64,000 nt of DNA from Lactobacillus sp. PV012 (GTDB taxonomy: Bacteria > Bacillota > Bacilli > Lactobacillales > Lactobacillaceae). A program made the translations under genes and the position numbers. The stretch covers positions 1-64,000 of the forward strand of contig NZ_CP041983.1 in the NCBI RefSeq assembly GCF_014522325.1. Direction: 5' to 3'. Under the pieces are notes generated by a model. The model was not told the DNA's origin, did no database searches, and saw nothing but the letters and a program-made list of their open reading frames with translations. Positions 6,573-14,391 of this stretch are shown one piece after another (position 1 is the stretch's first letter; every line of letters begins with the position of its first letter).

Positions 6573-8837
6573 TTATTTTATTAATTCACTTATTAATTTA
6601 TCCATTTGGACTTTTGTCTGCTTAAAGCTCTTTATTGGATGGTTTGTTTGAATGATCACAGCATTTTTTCCGTTATTAGAAATTCTTACAAATGCATGAT
6701 AGCCAACTCCTGCCCCATTTGCAGCTCGAAAGCCCGCCGGATTATTATAGAATCCACCACCATAGTAGGCTGGTGCTTTACCTCTAAAAAGAATTTTCAT
6801 TGAGTTTTTAGACAGTAAAGTTCCATCTGTAATGGCTTTCTCAGTTTTGTATAAATCTGATGTCGACATTACCACTGATCCTGCCCCAAGTTCTCCATGG
6901 AGCTCATTTAAATTCAAAGTAATCGGAACTTCAGAAGTTTTATTTTTATTAGCGTATCTATAAGATTGCGCTAAATGTACCTTCTGCAACTTCGATTTTT
7001 TATTCCAAATAAATGCAGTATTTTCTAGCTTCAATTTCTTTACAAAAGTTTCATTAAATAAACTTTCGTAGGATTGGTGAGTTACTTTCTCTAAAATTCC
7101 AGATAAAAGTACATAGTTAATTGAAGAATAATATCTTTTACCATACAAATTATCCTTAAAACTAATCAAATGGTCAATATCATATTCGATACCCGCTTGA
7201 TCATTTTCAAACTTCGGACTTCCTAATGGTGCTTTATTTGGTGTAGTAAGCCCACTTGTCATTTCAAGCAACTGTTGAATGGTAATCCGATTAGCTTGAT
7301 CAATATTAGGGTAAAATTTGGCCAACTTATCTGTCAACTTCAGGTTACCCTTTTCAACTTGACGCATAACCATTGTAGCAGTCATAGCCTTTTGAACAGA
7401 ATCGATTAAATAACTAGTTTTCTCAGTATTAACTAAGTTTTTCTTCTTATTTGCCCAACCAGTTGCATAAGAGACCCTTACCTTATTATTTTTTACTTCA
7501 GTTACTGTCCCTTGTAAGCCCTGCTGATTCATCAAATTTTGCATTCGGTTAATTTCAGCTGCTTTTTCTTCAACTGACTTGCTAATTTTTGCATCTGGCT
7601 TTTTTGCCCAAGCTTCAGAGAAATAATAGTTATTCAGCTGATAGTTAATTGGCGTATTCTTAAGTTTCATAAATGACTGTACATACTTATCCATCGTAAG
7701 CCATCCATTCCAACCTAAGTGAATAGTATCTTCCATGAAGTATTCTTTGTCACCATCCTTCGACAAATCAGCTACATGGGTAAAACCTTGAGTTAAAAGT
7801 TGCGCTTTAATTTTATTTACAGAACGTTGGTACATCTTTTCAGATAGACCTGTATATTTTGCCCACTTACTATTTACTGGTGGAATTACAAATAATACAT
7901 TTACATGTTCTTGCGCAAATTCATTTAAAACTAACTCAAAATCGCCAAATTCTGGGGAACGGGTATAGTCAAAATTCTTTTGAGAGTCTTTTAGACCCTT
8001 TAATCCATTCTTCAATAATCTCTTTTTAAAGAAATTATTAGAGATATTAAATGAATTGTTTGTTGTACCCTGTGCTCCTTGATTATTAGCGAATTGACGC
8101 AAATTATCATATGCATATGTCCCAGGAAGTTTGTGCGCACCACTTTGCAATTTCGGAATATTATTCTTCATATCAAAAGTAGTAAAAAAATCATCCTGAT
8201 TAGAAAGGGTTCTTTGACGCATTTGAAGCCATGATCTTTGCCAATTGGAAATTTTCTTTCCATCTGCTAGATCTTTTAGTGCTGCTTTAGTCGACTCACT
8301 TGAAGTTGCTGAAGGCATCTTAAGTAATCGTTTAGCAGCATAGCGTGTCGCAACACTATCTTTAGCACTCAAAATCCAATCAATAGCTTGTAATTGTGAA
8401 AAATACATTCCAAAAGCAGCTGGATCTTGCCCTTCTTTTACAAACCATTGAGGAGAGATAATAAACACTGCTTTTTTACCAGCAAGTTGTTTCTTAGTCT
8501 CTTGAAGATTCATAAAATGTGTCAAGGATTGACTACCAGGTCCCCCTAATAAAAAGGGCTGATATGAACGATGATATTTATAAGCTAAAACACTTGGATG
8601 TAAAGGATCCATTCGAGAAAGCTCACTTGAACCATAAAAAGGAACGTACTCTTTTTCAAAAGCCGCCCGTTTAATATTTTCTCCCTTAAATACGTTTTGA
8701 GATTGGGAGACAGATGCTTTGAATAAAACACCATCTGAAACTTTTCTATTCCATGGAATTATAAAAACCACGAATAATAGAATAAAAGCACAGATAACTG
8801 GGCCAAAAATTTGCCACAGCTTTCGTTTATTACTCAT
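6573..8837 (-). CDS. dltD: DltD fused to a C-terminal serine beta-lactamase-like domain
   Basis: 754 residues, against about 420 for ordinary DltD, which acts in the last steps of D-alanyl transfer to teichoic acid outside the membrane. Residues 10-28 form the anchor. The DltD part (about 1-410) has GSSEL (Ser70/71) and the paired D-x-x-H of EDTIHLGWNG (Asp370, His373), the expected catalytic set. A linker (about 411-437) leads to a class-C beta-lactamase/PBP-like domain (about 438-754) with SVQK (Ser480, Lys483). The second motif reads YSS instead of YxN (Tyr570-Ser572), and the third, normally HxG, lies near N707-G-A-G without the His. The gene overlaps dltC by 8 bases and ends the operon. 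It reads in one frame, so it is a genuine fusion in this sequence. D-Ala esterase/peptidase or a degenerate binding role are both possible. Confidence 0.88.
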   Translation of the reverse strand: MSNKRKLWQIFGPVICAFILLFVVFIIPWNRKVSDGVLFKASVSQSQNVFKGENIKRAAFEKEYVPFYGSSELSRMDPLHPSVLAYKYHRSYQPFLLGGPGSQSLTHFMNLQETKKQLAGKKAVFIISPQWFVKEGQDPAAFGMYFSQLQAIDWILSAKDSVATRYAAKRLLKMPSATSSESTKAALKDLADGKKISNWQRSWLQMRQRTLSNQDDFFTTFDMKNNIPKLQSGAHKLPGTYAYDNLRQFANNQGAQGTTNNSFNISNNFFKKRLLKNGLKGLKDSQKNFDYTRSPEFGDFELVLNEFAQEHVNVLFVIPPVNSKWAKYTGLSEKMYQRSVNKIKAQLLTQGFTHVADLSKDGDKEYFMEDTIHLGWNGWLTMDKYVQSFMKLKNTPINYQLNNYYFSEAWAKKPDAKISKSVEEKAAEINRMQNLMNQQGLQGTVTEVKNNKVRVSYATGWANKKKNLVNTEKTSYLIDSVQKAMTATMVMRQVEKGNLKLTDKLAKFYPNIDQANRITIQQLLEMTSGLTTPNKAPLGSPKFENDQAGIEYDIDHLISFKDNLYGKRYYSSINYVLLSGILEKVTHQSYESLFNETFVKKLKLENTAFIWNKKSKLQKVHLAQSYRYANKNKTSEVPITLNLNELHGELGAGSVVMSTSDLYKTEKAITDGTLLSKNSMKILFRGKAPAYYGGGFYNNPAGFRAANGAGVGYHAFVRISNNGKNAVIIQTNHPIKSFKQTKVQMDKLISELIK

Positions 8838-9069
8838 TTCTTAAGCTTTCTACCTTTTCTACAATTTTTGTAGGAGTTTCCCATTCTTCACGTACAAATT
8901 CAGATACTGGAGGAGTAATTCCGATAAGTTGTTGTAATTCAAGTAACATTTGTACTACTGCCATTGAATCCATTAAACCTGTTTCGAATAAATCTTCATC
9001 CATACGATCAGTAAAATCTTCACCAGTTAATTCATTTAATACATTTAATACAGCTTCTTTAGTATCCAT
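8830..9069 (-). CDS. dltC: D-alanine carrier protein DltC
   Basis: 79-residue acyl-carrier-like protein that holds activated D-alanine on a 4'-phosphopantetheine arm. The attachment serine is Ser35 in GLMDSMAVV, the classical D-S context. It is charged by DltA and handed to DltB at the membrane. Length is typical. It lies 21 bases after dltB and overlaps dltD by 8 bases. Confidence 0.95.
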   Translation of the reverse strand: MDTKEAVLNVLNELTGEDFTDRMDEDLFETGLMDSMAVVQMLLELQQLIGITPPVSEFVREEWETPTKIVEKVESLRNE

Positions 9070-9090
9070 AATTTAAATTCCTTTCACTAT

Positions 9091-10308
9091 CTATTTCCAA
9101 CCAAACCAAAGAGTACTTAAAAATCCTGAAAAAATCAAGAAACTGAAACATACTACATTGAAAGTTAAGAAAATCGCAAACCATTTTGTAAACTTATTAG
9201 ATGGAATTTTGTCTTTATGCTTTCTCTTAAATACAAGCCAATTATCATTAAAAATAATCGCAAAAGCATGATAAATCCCATATACAATATAATACCACGT
9301 TAAACCATGCCAAAATCCCATAACTAGGAAATCAATAAAATATGATAAACGTGACAAGTCTTTTCGATTTTTAACAAGTTTTTTCTTCATTGCAAAGAAA
9401 GTAAATCTCATGAAAATGAAGTCACGGAACCAAAATGATAGGGTAATATGCCAACGATTCCAAAAATCTTTAATATTCTTAGAAATAAATGGCTTATTAA
9501 AGTTCATTGGTGTCTTAATTCCCATGAAATATGATGTTCCTACCGCAAAGAGTGAATAACCTGCAAAGTCAAAGAATAAATACATACTATAGCAGTACAT
9601 ATAACCTACTAAAGCCCAAGAAAGTTTTAAAGGTCCTTGTCCCATATGGATTGACATCTTTGCTAATTGAGGAAGCCAAAGCGTACCAAATACATATCCA
9701 ATGATAAATTTATATAAAAAGCCTTGGAAAATATATCTAGTCCCTAAACGCATCTGCTCAATATACTCTTGCCGATCAGGCGCTCCATTACAATCATTTG
9801 CAAATCTTTTATAACGATCAATAGGTCCTGAAGAAATCGTTGGGAAAAACAACAGAAAACGGGCATAAGTTACAGGATCAACTTTTTCTATTGCCTTATC
9901 TCTTAATTCCATCAACACTTCAACCGTTTTAAAAGTTATATATGAAATCCCAAAAAATCCAATTAGATCCGCAACTGGATTATTAACATGGGGCGCAATT
10001 TTTACTACTACCAATGGCAAAATTGCTAAAATGATGACTACATAAAAGACCCAACTTTTATTTCGTCCAGATCTGATATAACGTTCATAAGCAAAAGTTA
10101 ACAAGAATTGAAATGCAATATAGCCAATCAATTGATACCCTTGAATTGCATCTGTTCCATCAAACATTAATACCAAAAACAGCAATGATACCAGAGCTTC
10201 ATAAATCTTAAAGCGTCGTCCAAAATACAACCCAATTATTAAAGGTAGTAACGCCACAAAAAGAATTATAAAGTAACGCGGATTGCTGTATGGTTGCATA
10301 TTGATCAC
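9091..10308 (-). CDS. dltB: D-alanyl transfer MBOAT protein DltB
   Basis: 405-residue multispanning membrane O-acyltransferase. It moves D-alanine from DltC toward the outside for teichoic acid modification. The MBOAT core is visible in NIKDFWNRWHITLSFWFRDF and the later GFWHGLTWYY, whose His is the expected catalytic residue. It starts inside the dltA stop (ATGA, 4-base overlap), so translation is coupled. Confidence 0.95.
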   Translation of the reverse strand: MINMQPYSNPRYFIILFVALLPLIIGLYFGRRFKIYEALVSLLFLVLMFDGTDAIQGYQLIGYIAFQFLLTFAYERYIRSGRNKSWVFYVVIILAILPLVVVKIAPHVNNPVADLIGFFGISYITFKTVEVLMELRDKAIEKVDPVTYARFLLFFPTISSGPIDRYKRFANDCNGAPDRQEYIEQMRLGTRYIFQGFLYKFIIGYVFGTLWLPQLAKMSIHMGQGPLKLSWALVGYMYCYSMYLFFDFAGYSLFAVGTSYFMGIKTPMNFNKPFISKNIKDFWNRWHITLSFWFRDFIFMRFTFFAMKKKLVKNRKDLSRLSYFIDFLVMGFWHGLTWYYIVYGIYHAFAIIFNDNWLVFKRKHKDKIPSNKFTKWFAIFLTFNVVCFSFLIFSGFLSTLWFGWK

Positions 10309-11825
10309 GCGTTATTTACCTCCTTGATTACCTGTTTGATATCTACCTTACCATTTTGCGAAATTGGCATATTTTCTCGGTAAATAAATCTTTGAGGAAG
10401 CATATATGGCATAATATCTCGGCTTAAATCTTCACGTAACTTTTTAGTCAATTCAGCATCGCTATACTTTTCTCTCACGCCTTCCGCTAATTCCACCACT
10501 GCAACTAATTGTTGCACTTTATGGTCTTTGTTATATCGTGGTGCAACTACGCCATAGCGTACCAATGGATTTTTAGCAAGATAGAAATTAATTTCTTCTA
10601 GTTCAATTCTATAGCCATTAAATTTTACTTGGAAATCAATTCTTCCTCGATAAAAGAGCATATCTCCGTCTAAAAATCCTAAATCTCCAGTACGGTAGGT
10701 ACTATATTGATCATTTGGATTTTTGAAAAATGCGGCTTCAGTTTTTTCAGGATTATTTAAATATCCCTTAGATACACTTGGCCCTTGAATCAATACTTCT
10801 CCTTGTTTATTATCTTTATCTTCACCCTTTGAAGTATCAATTGTAACCTTTGTATCTTTTTTAGCCACTCCAATTGGTAAACGATCATACTTATTTAAGA
10901 TATCATTATCAATTTCAACACTAGTTACAGCCACTGTAGTTTCAGTTGGACCATAAGTATTATAAATATGACTATCAGGGAATTTATTCTTTAATACTTG
11001 AGCAGTTTTGTGACTTAATTCTTCCCCACAGAATAAGAAATGAGTTAAATTCTTGTGATGCTCACCATTAAAAGTAGGATCTAAAAAACTCATTTCAGCA
11101 AATGATGGTGTTGAAACCCAAACATTAAAGTCTAAATTAGGCATAGTTTTAAACAGTTGACCCAGATTTTGCGTTACATCATGAGGTAAAACGACAAGCT
11201 TTCCTCCTGAAGTTAAAGCGGGATACAAACTCATTACTGATAGATCAAAAGAATAAGGGGCTTGAGCTAAAAAGCTAGGATGTTCAGGTAAATTAAAATC
11301 TTCTAACTCCCAATTTACAAAGCTTAATAAGTTATTATGGCTGATTTGAACACCCTTTGGCTTTCCGGTAGTTCCAGAAGTAAAGATAATATAGAAATTA
11401 TCATCCCCACTTACATAATTATCTTCAGCAATATTAAAATCACCATCTTCAACTTCTGATGCATTTAATACTTCAATATTCTTCATTTCAATTGGTAACT
11501 CATCAACAGCAATTACCAAAGGTGCTTGAGATACCTCCTGAATCATAGTTAAACGTTCACTGTTTGAGTAACTAGCGATTGGAATATAAGCATGTCCAGC
11601 CTTAACAGCTCCTAAAAAGCTCGCAATCATTTCGAAGTTTTGACCACCCCAAATCATAACTGGTGCTTTTTCAGGAATATTCATCTTTTTCAATTTAGCT
11701 GCATAAGCATCTGATCTCTTTTTTAAATCACCATAAGTATTTGTCTCACCTAAATAGTCATAAACAATTCTATTTGGATCTTTTATAGCAATTTCATCGA
11801 TCGTTTTGATTACATCTTTAATCAT
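10305..11825 (-). CDS. dltA: D-alanine--D-alanyl carrier protein ligase DltA
   Basis: 506-residue adenylating enzyme that activates D-alanine with ATP and loads it onto DltC in the cytoplasm. The AMP-binding loop FTSGTTGKPKG is clear, followed by NTYGPTE and YRTGD, and the C-terminal domain has the lysine region near NGKVD. Full length. It lies 18 bases after dltX. Confidence 0.95.
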   Translation of the reverse strand: MIKDVIKTIDEIAIKDPNRIVYDYLGETNTYGDLKKRSDAYAAKLKKMNIPEKAPVMIWGGQNFEMIASFLGAVKAGHAYIPIASYSNSERLTMIQEVSQAPLVIAVDELPIEMKNIEVLNASEVEDGDFNIAEDNYVSGDDNFYIIFTSGTTGKPKGVQISHNNLLSFVNWELEDFNLPEHPSFLAQAPYSFDLSVMSLYPALTSGGKLVVLPHDVTQNLGQLFKTMPNLDFNVWVSTPSFAEMSFLDPTFNGEHHKNLTHFLFCGEELSHKTAQVLKNKFPDSHIYNTYGPTETTVAVTSVEIDNDILNKYDRLPIGVAKKDTKVTIDTSKGEDKDNKQGEVLIQGPSVSKGYLNNPEKTEAAFFKNPNDQYSTYRTGDLGFLDGDMLFYRGRIDFQVKFNGYRIELEEINFYLAKNPLVRYGVVAPRYNKDHKVQQLVAVVELAEGVREKYSDAELTKKLREDLSRDIMPYMLPQRFIYRENMPISQNGKVDIKQVIKEVNNA

Positions 11826-11843
11826 TTAATGCGATCCTTTCAA

Positions 11844-11999
11844 TTAAAAATCTTTATAAATGAAGCTTGCGCTACCAATTCCACTATAAGAGTAGAGATA
11901 AACTAAAACTAACAAAATAGCAAAATAAAAAATTGTTTTTCCAATAAATATTCCTATTTCCTTAGCTCTAGAATTTTGGTGTTCAGTTTTTGCTGCCAT
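11844..11999 (-). CDS. dltX: DltX, small membrane protein of the dlt operon
   Basis: 51-residue protein with one transmembrane helix (about 20-38). Its C-terminus, YSGIGSASFIYKDF, matches the conserved DltX tail (usually ending FIYNEF), here with Lys-Asp for Asn-Glu. DltX is the first gene of dlt operons in many Firmicutes and takes part in D-alanyl transfer with DltB/DltD. AGGTGTG lies just before the ATG. Confidence 0.92.
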   Translation of the reverse strand: MAAKTEHQNSRAKEIGIFIGKTIFYFAILLVLVYLYSYSGIGSASFIYKDF

Positions 12000-12073
12000 T
12001 CTCACACCTCATAATCTTTTTAATTTTACAACACCTTTTCTTTGAGAGAAAGGCTCCCTGTCTTAATATAAAC

Positions 12074-12082
12074 ATTATAACA
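12074..12082 (-). promoter_or_regulatory. dlt operon promoter (extended -10)
   Basis: On the minus strand TGTTATAAT is an exact TGnTATAAT extended -10, about 75 bases upstream of dltX. No good -35 hexamer is present; the -35 zone overlaps the stop of the upstream gene. The position implies a leader of roughly 65 bases. Confidence 0.6.
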
Positions 12083-12095
12083 AAAAAAATCTTAT

Positions 12096-12392
12096 TTAAC
12101 GCCCTCTCTTATTATCTCTTGCATTTAAATAGGCAATAAATAAAAAGATAGTTGGTAAAAGTGAAACGAAGAAAAGTGAAAAAATAGTTACTTTTATAAT
12201 CCAACTTGGATTTTGCCAGCGACTAGTATTAGCAGTGGCCAAAAGATATGCTGAAAAAACCACCACTATTGCCAGGGTAATTAAAAATAATCCTGCATGA
12301 CTCATATTATAAAGCTGAAGCATCACTGCAGCTGCAATTAAGCCACTCCACCCAGCTACCTTTATCCAGAAACTTGTTTTGTTTTTTATCAT
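12096..12392 (-). CDS. Small membrane protein of unknown function (98 aa)
   Basis: 98 residues with about three hydrophobic helices and a basic C-terminus (NARDNKRGR). I do not recognise a family. Its ATG lies one base after the stop of the preceding gene, whose end also supplies the AGGGAG ribosome site, so the two are translated from one message. Position upstream of dlt suggests an envelope role, which is only inference. Confidence 0.7.
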   Translation of the reverse strand: MIKNKTSFWIKVAGWSGLIAAAVMLQLYNMSHAGLFLITLAIVVVFSAYLLATANTSRWQNPSWIIKVTIFSLFFVSLLPTIFLFIAYLNARDNKRGR

Positions 12393-12393
12393 G

Positions 12394-13530
12394 TTAACTC
12401 CCTAATAAAGCGTTAATATTTGCTGACAAAATTCTATCTACTATCATAATATCATCACGAGCGTATTCTCTTGAAGAAGATTCAAACAATAACAATAATT
12501 GTCCTTTATAAACAGAGATTTGTTCTAAATATGGCGGTAATGTAACAACCTTATCAGCTCTATCTTCATCTAAGTTATCAATCGCCGATGCCGGGAAAAA
12601 ATAAAGCTTAGAGTCTTTACTCCCATAAGATTGACTTAAAATAATCCAATCCTTATAAATTGCTATTCCCTGAATCTGACTATCCATTGCTGCACTTCCG
12701 GCCCCAGAAGCCCATGTACTTTGTCCTGTTACTGCTTTGATTTGATCACTAGTAATAGTATCTTTAAAATATCCTATTCTACTTATTGGATAAGCAACAA
12801 TTCTTCCCTTTTCATCTTTACTAAAAAATCCTACAAACAGTTGATTATCATCATAAGTTACTGCAGATGCACGTTCAATAGTTGGTAGCGTTATTTCATG
12901 GTCATAAGTAATCGGCTGGTGACTTTTTTGATAATTATAATCTTCGATTCTTTTAAGAGGAATAGACATTAAAGCAGCCTGTCCTTGGCTTGTTCCTGTT
13001 AACCAAATATTTTTGGCAATTGGATCATAAGTAATTCCACCTAAGTGGGGTTTACCGGCTACAATAATTCGCTTAAGATATTTTCCTTTCTTATTTAATA
13101 CATAGATTACTGAAGCATGGGTATGTTTTGCATCATATGCTGTAATTAAAATATAGTTTCCAGCAATCGTTACTCCTTGGGGAGTCATATAGAAAGAAGA
13201 AGTATCTTTATTTTTTTCATAATCATAGCTTATTGTTTTTTTAACACCAGGAATCACAACATCTGCGCCTCGATAGGAGGTCTTCGGGGTAGTGTAGACA
13301 GCTTGATAAAGTTTAGGGTACTTTTTACTAAGTTGCTTCTTAAAATATTCCAAATTATAGCGTGTTGCACTTATACTCGTTCCGTCTTTAGCACTTACTA
13401 AAGCTGGCGCACTCGAAAAAGCTTTTTGATTTTGATGATGGCGATAAACTTTATTTACAATAAAATAACTACCTATTCCTGTAATTACGATCAATGATAG
13501 GAAAAATAAGATTCTAATGACTTTTTTCAT
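12394..13530 (-). CDS. Exported beta-propeller-like protein of unknown function
   Basis: 378 residues with an N-terminal membrane anchor (about 5-24), then a soluble extracellular domain. Repeated short strands such as YILITAYD, NIWLTGTS, QLFVGFF and WIILSQSY look like propeller blades. I do not know its substrate. I place the start at the ATG at 13530, because AAGGAGGT lies 8 bases upstream; the GTG three codons earlier lies inside that site. It shares a message with the 98-residue membrane protein. Confidence 0.72.
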   Translation of the reverse strand: MKKVIRILFFLSLIVITGIGSYFIVNKVYRHHQNQKAFSSAPALVSAKDGTSISATRYNLEYFKKQLSKKYPKLYQAVYTTPKTSYRGADVVIPGVKKTISYDYEKNKDTSSFYMTPQGVTIAGNYILITAYDAKHTHASVIYVLNKKGKYLKRIIVAGKPHLGGITYDPIAKNIWLTGTSQGQAALMSIPLKRIEDYNYQKSHQPITYDHEITLPTIERASAVTYDDNQLFVGFFSKDEKGRIVAYPISRIGYFKDTITSDQIKAVTGQSTWASGAGSAAMDSQIQGIAIYKDWIILSQSYGSKDSKLYFFPASAIDNLDEDRADKVVTLPPYLEQISVYKGQLLLLFESSSREYARDDIMIVDRILSANINALLGS

Positions 13531-13697
13531 TTTTCCCACCTCCTTCTTTAATACAATACGAAAAAATTCTTCTTTTTAAATTTCCCAAGTGAATATTTCC
13601 CAGGAATTAATTTTCTTATGAAAATTATAAACTACCTTTACATTTTCTGTAAAAATTAATCATAAATTCATCATATTTTCTCTCTAATATATAAACC

Positions 13698-13845
13698 ATA
13701 GCAAGAGGGGAAACCTCAAAGCTATTAGCATTAATATCCAAACTTTTATTTTCATTTTTACTCCTCCAAGTAAATTAAACACATTGCCTTTTCGGCTAAT
13801 CATATTATCCCTAAAACCTCGTGAAATTCATTTACGAGGTTTTTC
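13698..13845 (+). ncRNA. Small RNA copy 1 of a tandem three-copy family (proposed)
   Basis: Proposed plus-strand RNA of about 148 bases. Order: TAATAT -10 box (13685-13690); a 5' hairpin ATAGC-GAGG-loop-CCTC-GCTAT (13698-13725) with a five-base loop; a linker with CTCCTCC (13761-13767) preceded by CAT, complementary to a strong ribosome site plus AUG; a second hairpin with a GCC/GGC core; and a terminator, AAACCTCGT / ACGAGGTTT with T run (13814-13844). It differs from copies 2 and 3 by small indels in homopolymers, which an RNA can tolerate. Transcription has not been shown; the call rests on conserved structure. Confidence 0.7.
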
Positions 13846-13974
13846 TTTGGGTTTAAAATCATTATTTTCTCTTAAAAAATACTTTTAGGTTTAATCTGTT
13901 GCTTTTATCAATATTTATAATTTCTATGAAAAAACGTCACACTTTCTTCATAATTTCTCTCTAATATATAAACC

Positions 13975-14137
13975 ATAGCAAGAGGGAAACCTCAAAGCTA
14001 TTAGCATTAACATCCAACTTTTTTATTTTCATTCTTACTCCTCCAAGTAGATTGAACATATTGTCAGCTCTTTCTTAATCAGAGTTGACCACATTTATTC
14101 CTAAAGACTCACATCTTCCCACTGTGAGTCTTTTTTA
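13975..14137 (+). ncRNA. Small RNA copy 2 of a tandem three-copy family (proposed)
   Basis: About 163 bases. The 5' hairpin (13975-14001) is ATAGC-aa-GAGG-GAAA-CCTC-aaa-GCTAT with a GNRA-type GAAA loop. The linker carries CTCCTCC at 14038-14044. The second hairpin is GTCAGCTCT / AGAGTTGAC (14063-14089). The terminator AAGACTCAC / GTGAGTCTT (14104-14132) has a six-T tail. Compared with copy 3 the second hairpin has a T-A to C-G exchange on both arms, which is covariation. Upstream lies the conserved block TTTCTTCATAA-TTTCTCTC-TAATAT. Confidence 0.75.
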
Positions 14138-14172
14138 TTTTTCAAAAACCTTTCTTCAATTTTTTTATAACA

Positions 14173-14208
14173 TTTCATCACACTTTCTTCACAATTTCTC
14201 TCTAATAT
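14173..14208 (+). promoter_or_regulatory. 11-bp direct repeats in the small RNA promoter
   Basis: Upstream of copy 3, TTTCATCACAC (14173-14183) is followed directly by TTTCTTCACAA (14184-14194) and the related TTTCTCTCTAA, then TAATAT. Repeats with an 11-base period that replace the -35 box are the usual layout for OmpR/PhoB-class response regulators. Copy 2 keeps the second and third units; copy 1 is more divergent. Confidence 0.45.
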
Positions 14209-14215
14209 ATAAACC

Positions 14216-14377
14216 ATAGCAAGAGGGAAACCTCAAAGCTATTAGCATTAACATCCAACTTTTTTATTTTCATTCTTACTCCTCCAAGTAGATTGAACAT
14301 ATTGTTAACTCTTTCTTAATAGAGTTAACCACATTTATTCCTTATTTTAAGACCACGAACTTCGTGGTCTTTTTTTG
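14216..14377 (+). ncRNA. Small RNA copy 3 of a tandem three-copy family (proposed)
   Basis: About 162 bases, with the same 5' hairpin and linker as copy 2 (hairpin 14216-14242, CTCCTCC 14279-14285). The second hairpin is a perfect 9-bp stem, GTTAACTCT / AGAGTTAAC (14304-14329). The terminator has an unrelated stem, GACCACGAA / TTCGTGGTC (14351-14369), and a T run. That three copies keep a terminator in the same place with different stem sequences is the best argument for plus-strand transcription. Confidence 0.75.
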
Positions 14378-14391
14378 TTTTATATAATAAA

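Follow-up and report, generated by a model that had tools for sequence, protein, structure and literature searches.

A widespread multicopy family of putative anti-Shine-Dalgarno small RNAs in Lactobacillus and related families of its order

Known multicopy sRNAs and the array of strain PV012

The closest described counterparts of the small RNAs (sRNAs) presented here are the csRNAs of streptococci and LhrC1-5 of Listeria. According to the available sections of PMC3091779, csRNAs occur in several copies and possess a direct-repeat promoter box (NTTAAG-N5-TTTAAG), a complement to the Shine-Dalgarno (SD) sequence and AUG, and an intrinsic terminator; their anti-SD sequences are located in unpaired regions, and CiaRH is reported there solely from streptococci. 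The excerpts of PMC4132741 describe LhrC as present in five copies, with C-rich contact sites (UCCC) in loops and single-stranded stretches, control by a two-component system during envelope stress, SD occlusion with stem opening upon binding, and, for LhrC5, a requirement for promoter sequence upstream of position -53 from the start site. In enterococci, E. faecalis sRNA_112 and E. faecium sRNA_005 have their first 50 nt kept across species and predicted lipoprotein and ABC-transporter targets, the portion of PMC7724050 at hand naming no regulator; enterococcal sRNAs are also treated in the accessible part of PMC5593968. An enterococcal RNA map, as far as its available text goes, presents its trans-acting sRNAs as rarely conserved past the species or genus. 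In the open-licence literature, a scope that excludes most subscription papers, we recognised no description of this sRNA family in Lactobacillaceae.

The window, i.e. the whole analysed stretch of 64,000 nt from Lactobacillus sp. PV012, contains an array of three tandem sRNA genes on the plus strand (13660-14378). Measured from the -10 box to the terminator tail, copy 1 extends over 13685-13848, copy 2 over 13962-14139 and copy 3 over 14203-14378, with a predicted RNA length of approximately 150-175 nt. Compared with copy 2 (ungapped, over 159 nt), copy 3 is 94% identical and copy 1 67%, and a DNA search of the PV012 genome (1.54 Mb, two contigs) revealed no copy beyond these three. A preliminary description had listed, for each copy, a -10 box, a 5' hairpin, a linker carrying CAT and CTCCTCC, a second hairpin and a terminator; all these elements are present in the three copies, although the structure differs from that description at several points. 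The -10 box at 13685, taken as the start of the array, is indeed there, but the true start lies farther upstream, with tandem boxes from 13660. These putative response-regulator boxes read TCATA-N6-TCATA in copy 1 (13660..13675), TCACA-N6-TCATA in copy 2 (13937..13952) and TCACA-N6-TCACA in copy 3 (14178..14193), and are followed by the -10 hexamer TAATAT at 13685..13690, 13962..13967 and 14203..14208, respectively, 9 nt past the box in copies 1 and 2. The 5' hairpin of copy 1 (ATAGC..GCTAT, 13698..13725) is seen in both the sequence and the predicted fold, and those of copies 2 and 3 are predicted at 13975..14001 and 14216..14242; it had been given as ATAGC-GAGG-GAAA-CCTC-GCTAT, whereas in copies 2 and 3 it is ATAGC-AA-GAGG-loop-CCTC-AAA-GCTAT, with an internal loop.

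The CAT and CTCCTCC sequences were correctly recognised, but not their context: instead of a linker, nearly all copies have a third, central hairpin with CCUCC in its loop. It is predicted at 13757..13774 in copy 1 (CCUCC at 13763-13767), at 14024..14060 in copy 2 (start-codon complement CAT at 14030-14032; CTCCTCC at 14038-14044, its CCUCC lying in the apical loop) and at 14265..14301 in copy 3 (CTCCTCC at 14279-14285). The predicted fold leaves CAT unpaired in copy 1, and in copies 2 and 3 its C and A form pairs. Hairpin 2 is predicted at 14063..14089 in copy 2 (GTCAGCTCT/AGAGTTGAC) and at 14304..14329 in copy 3 (GTTAACTCT/AGAGTTAAC, also listed by the terminator scan), and the covariation previously noticed between these copies is seen (C-G to T-A, G-U to A-U); in copy 1 it is reduced to a predicted 3-bp stem, GCC/GGC (13786..13796). 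As had been stated, the stems of the intrinsic terminators are unrelated among the copies (13813..13848; 14103..14139, with CUUCCCA in the loop; 14349..14378). The terminator scan listed those of copies 1 and 3 (plus hairpin 2 of copy 3), and a separate stem search found all three. Just upstream of the array, minus-strand genes at window 8830-13539 appear by eye to be dlt-like (D-alanylation of teichoic acids), and a 381-residue protein without NCBIfam match is also encoded on this strand within the same interval.

The resemblance to csRNAs proposed in the preliminary description stands as a likeness only. Both are multicopy, with a direct-repeat promoter box, a complement to SD and AUG and an intrinsic terminator; however, set against the available csRNA text, the conserved box here is TCAYA-N6-TCAYA rather than NTTAAG-N5-TTTAAG, and the anti-SD is located in an apical hairpin loop rather than in an unpaired region (the CAU of copy 1 excepted). 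With LhrC, as described in the excerpts, the family has in common several copies and C-rich sites, as well as the two-component control and stem opening proposed here; unlike the situation at LhrC5, 9 or 7 nt separate its box from the -10, and it has a CCUCC hairpin where LhrC has UCCC sites.

Conservation and predicted structure

The DNA search matched 67 of the 75 genomes of the genus, and all 60 of good quality (at least 90% complete, at most 5% contaminated), and therefore the array is not a product of chance. From 70 loci (72 fetched stretches and the window) 136 copies were extracted, a copy being defined by an upstream box or by agreement with 13 or more of the 15 motif letters; matches in L040 (plus strand), L108 and L043 (at 774) were dropped by eye. 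The copies comprise 45 of type A, 54 of type B and 37 of type C (three assignments corrected), those of the window being type C. Most often, in 44 of 70 loci, a type A copy is followed by one of type B, and neighbouring copies are spaced by 240-277 nt in 56 of 66 cases. The locus is syntenic within the genus: a P-type ATPase motif was found in the stretch at 66 of the 70 loci and a CBS-protein motif at 47, one example of each being confirmed by Pfam. At a CBS-gene locus (L209, ~1677-1880) a divergent further variant of the sRNA was observed (CATTCTCCTTC and a CCCCC-containing hairpin), and a box resembling that of this variant at G056:C12:14110-14140. A contig scan with the 5'-hairpin pattern yielded four matching contigs, titled Nitrospira-type or Armatimonadota.

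In the genus, the predicted fold of 132 of 134 copies has CCUCC within a hairpin loop. Order-wide, of 111 distinct regions preceded by a loose box, 99 had CCUC in the loop of a hairpin, compared with a mean of 27.4 (maximum 38) when the flanks were shuffled; chance matches outside sRNAs account for part of the 12 failures and for a few of these 99. Across the order the central stem varies yet stays paired, with compensating stems such as ATTTTTACT/AGTAAAAAT, TTCTTTACT/AGTAAAGAA and GATTGACTACT/AGTAGTCAATC, around a loop that remains CCUCC or close to it. The mean unpaired probability of CAU ranges from 0.07 to 0.36 according to the type.

Within the genus, two-sided changes were found in 15 of 24 pairs of type A (score 0.411 versus 0.229 shuffled and at most 0.135 slid) and in 10 of 25 pairs of type B (0.242 versus 0.148 and at most 0.064), counts that lean towards the structures since these were derived from the same alignments. 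Cells changed on both sides numbered 97 in type A versus 34.2 in shuffles, and 50 versus 11.2 in type B, where further pair types amounted to 22 versus 19.6, with 33 of 500 shuffles reaching 22. The 5' hairpin and the terminator are supported by the pair counts in both types, hairpin 2 in type A and the central hairpin in type B, where it displays no two-sided change. On alignment A2, excluded from the pair counts, RNAalifold found the 5' stem and the inner central stem, and neither hairpin 2 nor the terminator. The central hairpin is not universal, since four members of family f3 (L260, L261, L269, L276) have no 3' arm, ACTCCT running into the terminator hairpin; in L265, as in some members of f3, it is either missing or disrupted. 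Type A copies carry, between hairpin 2 and the terminator, a second nearly invariant motif, TTTCATATCTATCCCTTTCG, which is unpaired in the consensus fold (A3, 30 copies) and is the complement of CGAAAGGGATAGATATGAAA, another SD-AUG arrangement. UAUCCC and the terminator-loop CUUCCC occur in many copies, not all.

The preliminary description had proposed an sRNA family of lactobacilli, and a plus-strand, multicopy anti-SD family is what was found, though not confined to lactobacilli: members are present in other genera of the family, and five more families of the order also have them. With R1, a covariance model of type B, 84 of the family's 397 genomes were matched, in 16 of 40 genera (24 of the 84 from the own genus), and with a profile (R3, E at most 0.01) 242 of the order's 395, in 64 of 80 genera; near E 0.01 both genome counts are upper bounds, the weak R3 matches including false ones. 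R3 spans the promoter box through the central hairpin and is a sequence profile only, because the family-wide alignment from which it was built (A5) yielded no pairs in RNAalifold. Among 20 regions matched by R1 in 17 genomes of other genera, 18 were judged real (L191 and L193 not). Twenty R3 regions were fetched from the top of the list (f2, f3, f9), and the 18 assessed, i.e. all except L273 (a 100-base stretch) and L278 (own family), each had a box-like repeat, a -10 and a CAT/ACTCC stretch, the terminator being evident in 16, not evident in L265 and doubtful in L269. In 16 further genomes, 21 assessed loci gave 11 true copies, located in f5 (L280-L283, L285, L295, L297, L308), f7 (L290) and f3 (L298, and L279, which is the same place as L270). 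The matches at L284, L286-L289, L291, L293, L299, L302 and L304 were judged false, and none of the assessed f4 and f8 matches was judged a copy; L292, L294, L296, L300, L301, L303 and L305-L307 lie outside the assessed set. Genome G529 has four copies, 212 nt apart.

Promoter box and candidate regulator

The double box TCAYA-N6-TCAYA (at most one mismatch) precedes 73 of the 135 genus copies with enough upstream sequence: all 45 of type A, 28 of the 37 of type C (the other nine having no box or not being scorable) and none of type B, where an exact single TTCACA was found in just 27 of 54 copies. From the end of the box to the best -10 there are 9 nt in 49 copies, 7 nt in 22 and 12 nt in two. 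In L049, L056, L058, L059, L068, L091 and L098 (first or second type C copy) the double box is lost and the -10 region is TTTGTACTATAAT or similar; such paralogues with an altered type C promoter may be controlled differently.

A strict box search of the 75 genomes gave about 100 places, some two thirds of them at sRNA promoters, versus 5 for the reversed control pattern. Twenty of the approximately 35 places not belonging to sRNAs were fetched: eight precede htrA (L196-L202, L210; Trypsin_2 and PDZ domains in 8/8), eight precede spx (L203-L208, L211, L212; ArsC-family domain in 8/8, NCBIfam Spx above cut-off in the five tested), one is the L209 sRNA variant, and three are unassigned (L213-L215). 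The box stands some 55-75 nt before the htrA start codon and some 120-180 nt before that of spx, a distance because of which another promoter may be the main one at spx; the box may link the regulator to thiol/disulfide stress. In PV012, htrA has a looser box (TTCACT-N5-TTCAAA, ~65 nt before the start), and its product scores below cut-off for the NCBIfam HtrA models and above it for Trypsin_2. A loose box search of the PV012 genome alone remained at background level (49 matches versus 59 for the reversed pattern). A box common to sRNAs and htrA recalls the CiaRH regulon, htrA being a CiaR target.

PV012 encodes six proteins with a Trans_reg_C domain, i.e. OmpR-family response regulators. One is WalR by NCBIfam (422.6 bits, cut-off 340); that of locus L224 is nearest to PieR, below the NCBIfam cut-off (281.6 versus 450 bits), its gene being followed by that of a HAMP/HisKA kinase; that of L225 is ArlR/CovR-like by PDB matches; of the remaining ones, one is nearest to VanR and two have no clear assignment. 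CiaR was absent among the best 25 NCBIfam matches listed for each of the six. At L227:1627-3676 and L228:3048-4001, genes that look transposase-like by eye stand beside two response regulator genes, and the L227 sensor kinase seems short (197 codons).

Our best-supported guess, made from sequence comparison, is that the family is controlled by a YclJ/PieR-like OmpR-family response regulator. Orthologues of the L224 regulator (at least 228 bits and 50% identity, a cut-off set at the gap to the next match of 207 bits) were found in all 21 sRNA-bearing genomes tested and in 6 of the 20 without the sRNA (Fisher p 1.1e-6, kinship ignored), a test that covered L224 alone among the six PV012 regulators in 41 genomes. 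The presence of the sRNA was established from examined copies in 15 of the 21 genomes and from the R3 score alone in G085, G088, G099, G195, G447 and G482, and its absence from R3 with strict filters or from weak matches judged false. The orthologue occurs without the sRNA in G087, G093, G132 and three f8 genomes. At two f8 loci (L293, L302) a triple TTCATA-N5 box, to which the R3 match is limited there, is located between an FtsX-type permease gene, to which it points, and a response regulator gene whose product is 51-53% identical to that of L224 and 41-42% identical to WalR; in f8, where no sRNA was found, the regulator may have another job. The TCAYA-N6-TCAYA box matches TTCATANTTTNTTCATA, which we take to be the B. 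subtilis YclJ consensus. YclJ is mentioned in the part available of PMC5836110.

Alternative readings and proposed mode of action

The element could be read on the other strand, where GGAGGAG would be the ribosome site and ATGAAAATAAAA the start of a type I toxin, a leader peptide or a small peptide: the minus strand of types A and C has the appearance of a good translation start (GGAGG, 7 nt, ATG AAA), each window copy has a 23-codon minus-strand frame, and the fold energies of plus and minus strands are about equal (A -43.1/-42.4, B -31.7/-31.2, C -40.6/-42.7 kcal/mol). This frame, which starts at the CTCCTCC complement, is however not conserved, varying from 2 to 94 codons across the three types with mostly just the first codons in agreement, and the box and -10 are oriented on the plus strand. 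A plus-strand terminator was found in all 134 examined genus copies (two of the 136 were too close to the stretch end) and a mirrored minus-strand one in 31, with scores of at least 20 in 118 and 12, respectively. Hairpins, CTCCTCC and terminator are thus kept while the minus-strand frame is lost, the opposite of the pattern that the preliminary description had named as evidence against an RNA. Terminators and frame scatter favour a plus-strand gene, and the peptide or toxin, extremely improbable, was rejected. To regard the array as a true homologous member of the csRNA or LhrC family, under CiaR or LisR, would agree with the common plan of several copies, anti-SD, terminator and two-component control, and LhrC (RF00616) is the best Rfam match of copy 3. 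This match is nevertheless sub-threshold (26.3 bits, E 0.16, against a gathering score of 110), and no family of Rfam release 15 reaches its gathering score in the window; 19 order-level loci gave tRNAs only and 10 more loci, none judged a copy, gave none. Since the box is not the CiaR box, the anti-SD is not unpaired like those of the csRNA text available, and the LhrC gathering score is not attained, membership was rejected, and with no true copy among the assessed f4 and f8 matches we hold it to be very unlikely.

For the same sRNA family, WalR or a regulator of the ArlR/CovR/LisR type could take the place of the YclJ/PieR-type one. The PV012 htrA gene with its loose box closes the walRK cluster, the reverse complement of the box (TGTGAA-N5-TGTGAA) resembles WalR boxes, and co-occurrence was run for just one of the six OmpR-family regulators. 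Against this, regulators 44-47% identical to that of L224, much like PV012 WalR (45%) though not identified as WalR, are also present in genomes without the sRNA, and in the two f8 genomes the box adjoins a YclJ-like regulator; we therefore find this substitution doubtful. Less probable again, and in our view quite unlikely, is that the CCUCC loop, which equals the core of the 16S anti-SD, is a general ribosome-site or protein decoy not acting on chosen mRNAs. Multiple copies would suit a decoy, as would the outcome of the target searches, in which no conserved long target was found: the PV012 complement search gave just four three-mismatch matches besides the copies, and the genus search with GGAGG-N7-ATGAARAAYAARAARRTT returned mostly the sRNA itself and no conserved mRNA, with weak recurrent matches in two or three genomes. 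A bare decoy, however, would not need the U-rich stretch and CAT around the loop, which are about as conserved as the loop.

Among 452 heuristically called genes, covering about 31% of the PV012 genome, mean pairing energy with the sRNA piece was slightly better than with controls (-13.94 versus -12.73 kcal/mol). Secretome-wide targeting was not supported, secreted-type starts accounting for 11 of 45 in the top tenth versus 87 of 452 overall (control 9 of 45). As an anecdote, the starts of two genes after walK, which by position we take to be yycH and yycI, fall within the top 40 pairings.

In the preferred reading, a YclJ/PieR-type OmpR-family response regulator would bind TCAYA-N6-TCAYA and, when the envelope or proteins are under stress, activate htrA and spx as well as the sRNAs. 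The CCUCC loop would make the first contact with the SD sequence GGAGG of target mRNAs; the central stem would then open, allowing its 5' arm and the preceding U-rich stretch to pair with AUG and the following A-rich codons, and translation initiation of the bound mRNA would be blocked. UAUCCC and the terminator-loop CUUCCC may serve as extra contact points, and several copies would provide dosage and some specialisation. Such SD occlusion by the sRNA is likely. The array displays the generic features of trans-acting sRNA genes, namely its own promoter (by sequence), a covarying conserved structure and its own terminator. As a whole, the view that the three genes of the window are paralogues within a multicopy family of trans-acting sRNAs, activated by a response regulator along with htrA and spx and, as we infer, blocking SD sequences, appears to us reasonably probable; our confidence is slightly lowered because half of the type B copies have no exact TTCACA and six of the 21 genomes were assigned by score alone.

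Judged on sequence evidence, the sRNA gene family is real and widespread, and according to Rfam and the searched literature it is new as a family, of a known kind. Unlike most trans-acting sRNAs, it has retained box, loop and terminator in several families across the order. It is multicopy and without Rfam entry, has a promoter box in common with protein-quality genes, and its hosts are food and probiotic bacteria; with one candidate regulator, one box and one loop, it offers a ready test system. The enterococcal sRNA_112/sRNA_005 pair, compared by its description in the available text only, may be a member, in which case part of the family has already been detected and not recognised as such. 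More tentatively, and somewhat against our own leaning, the ancestral regulon of the order might have been a YclJ/PieR-type system driving a multicopy anti-SD sRNA with htrA and spx, its anti-SD in a hairpin opened by the target, as a counterpart of CiaRH-csRNA and LisRK-LhrC; groups that lost the regulator (f4, which we guess to be streptococci) would have lost the sRNA and would use a separately evolved equivalent. If the family functionally replaces csRNA and LhrC, the same circuit would have been built independently in neighbouring families.
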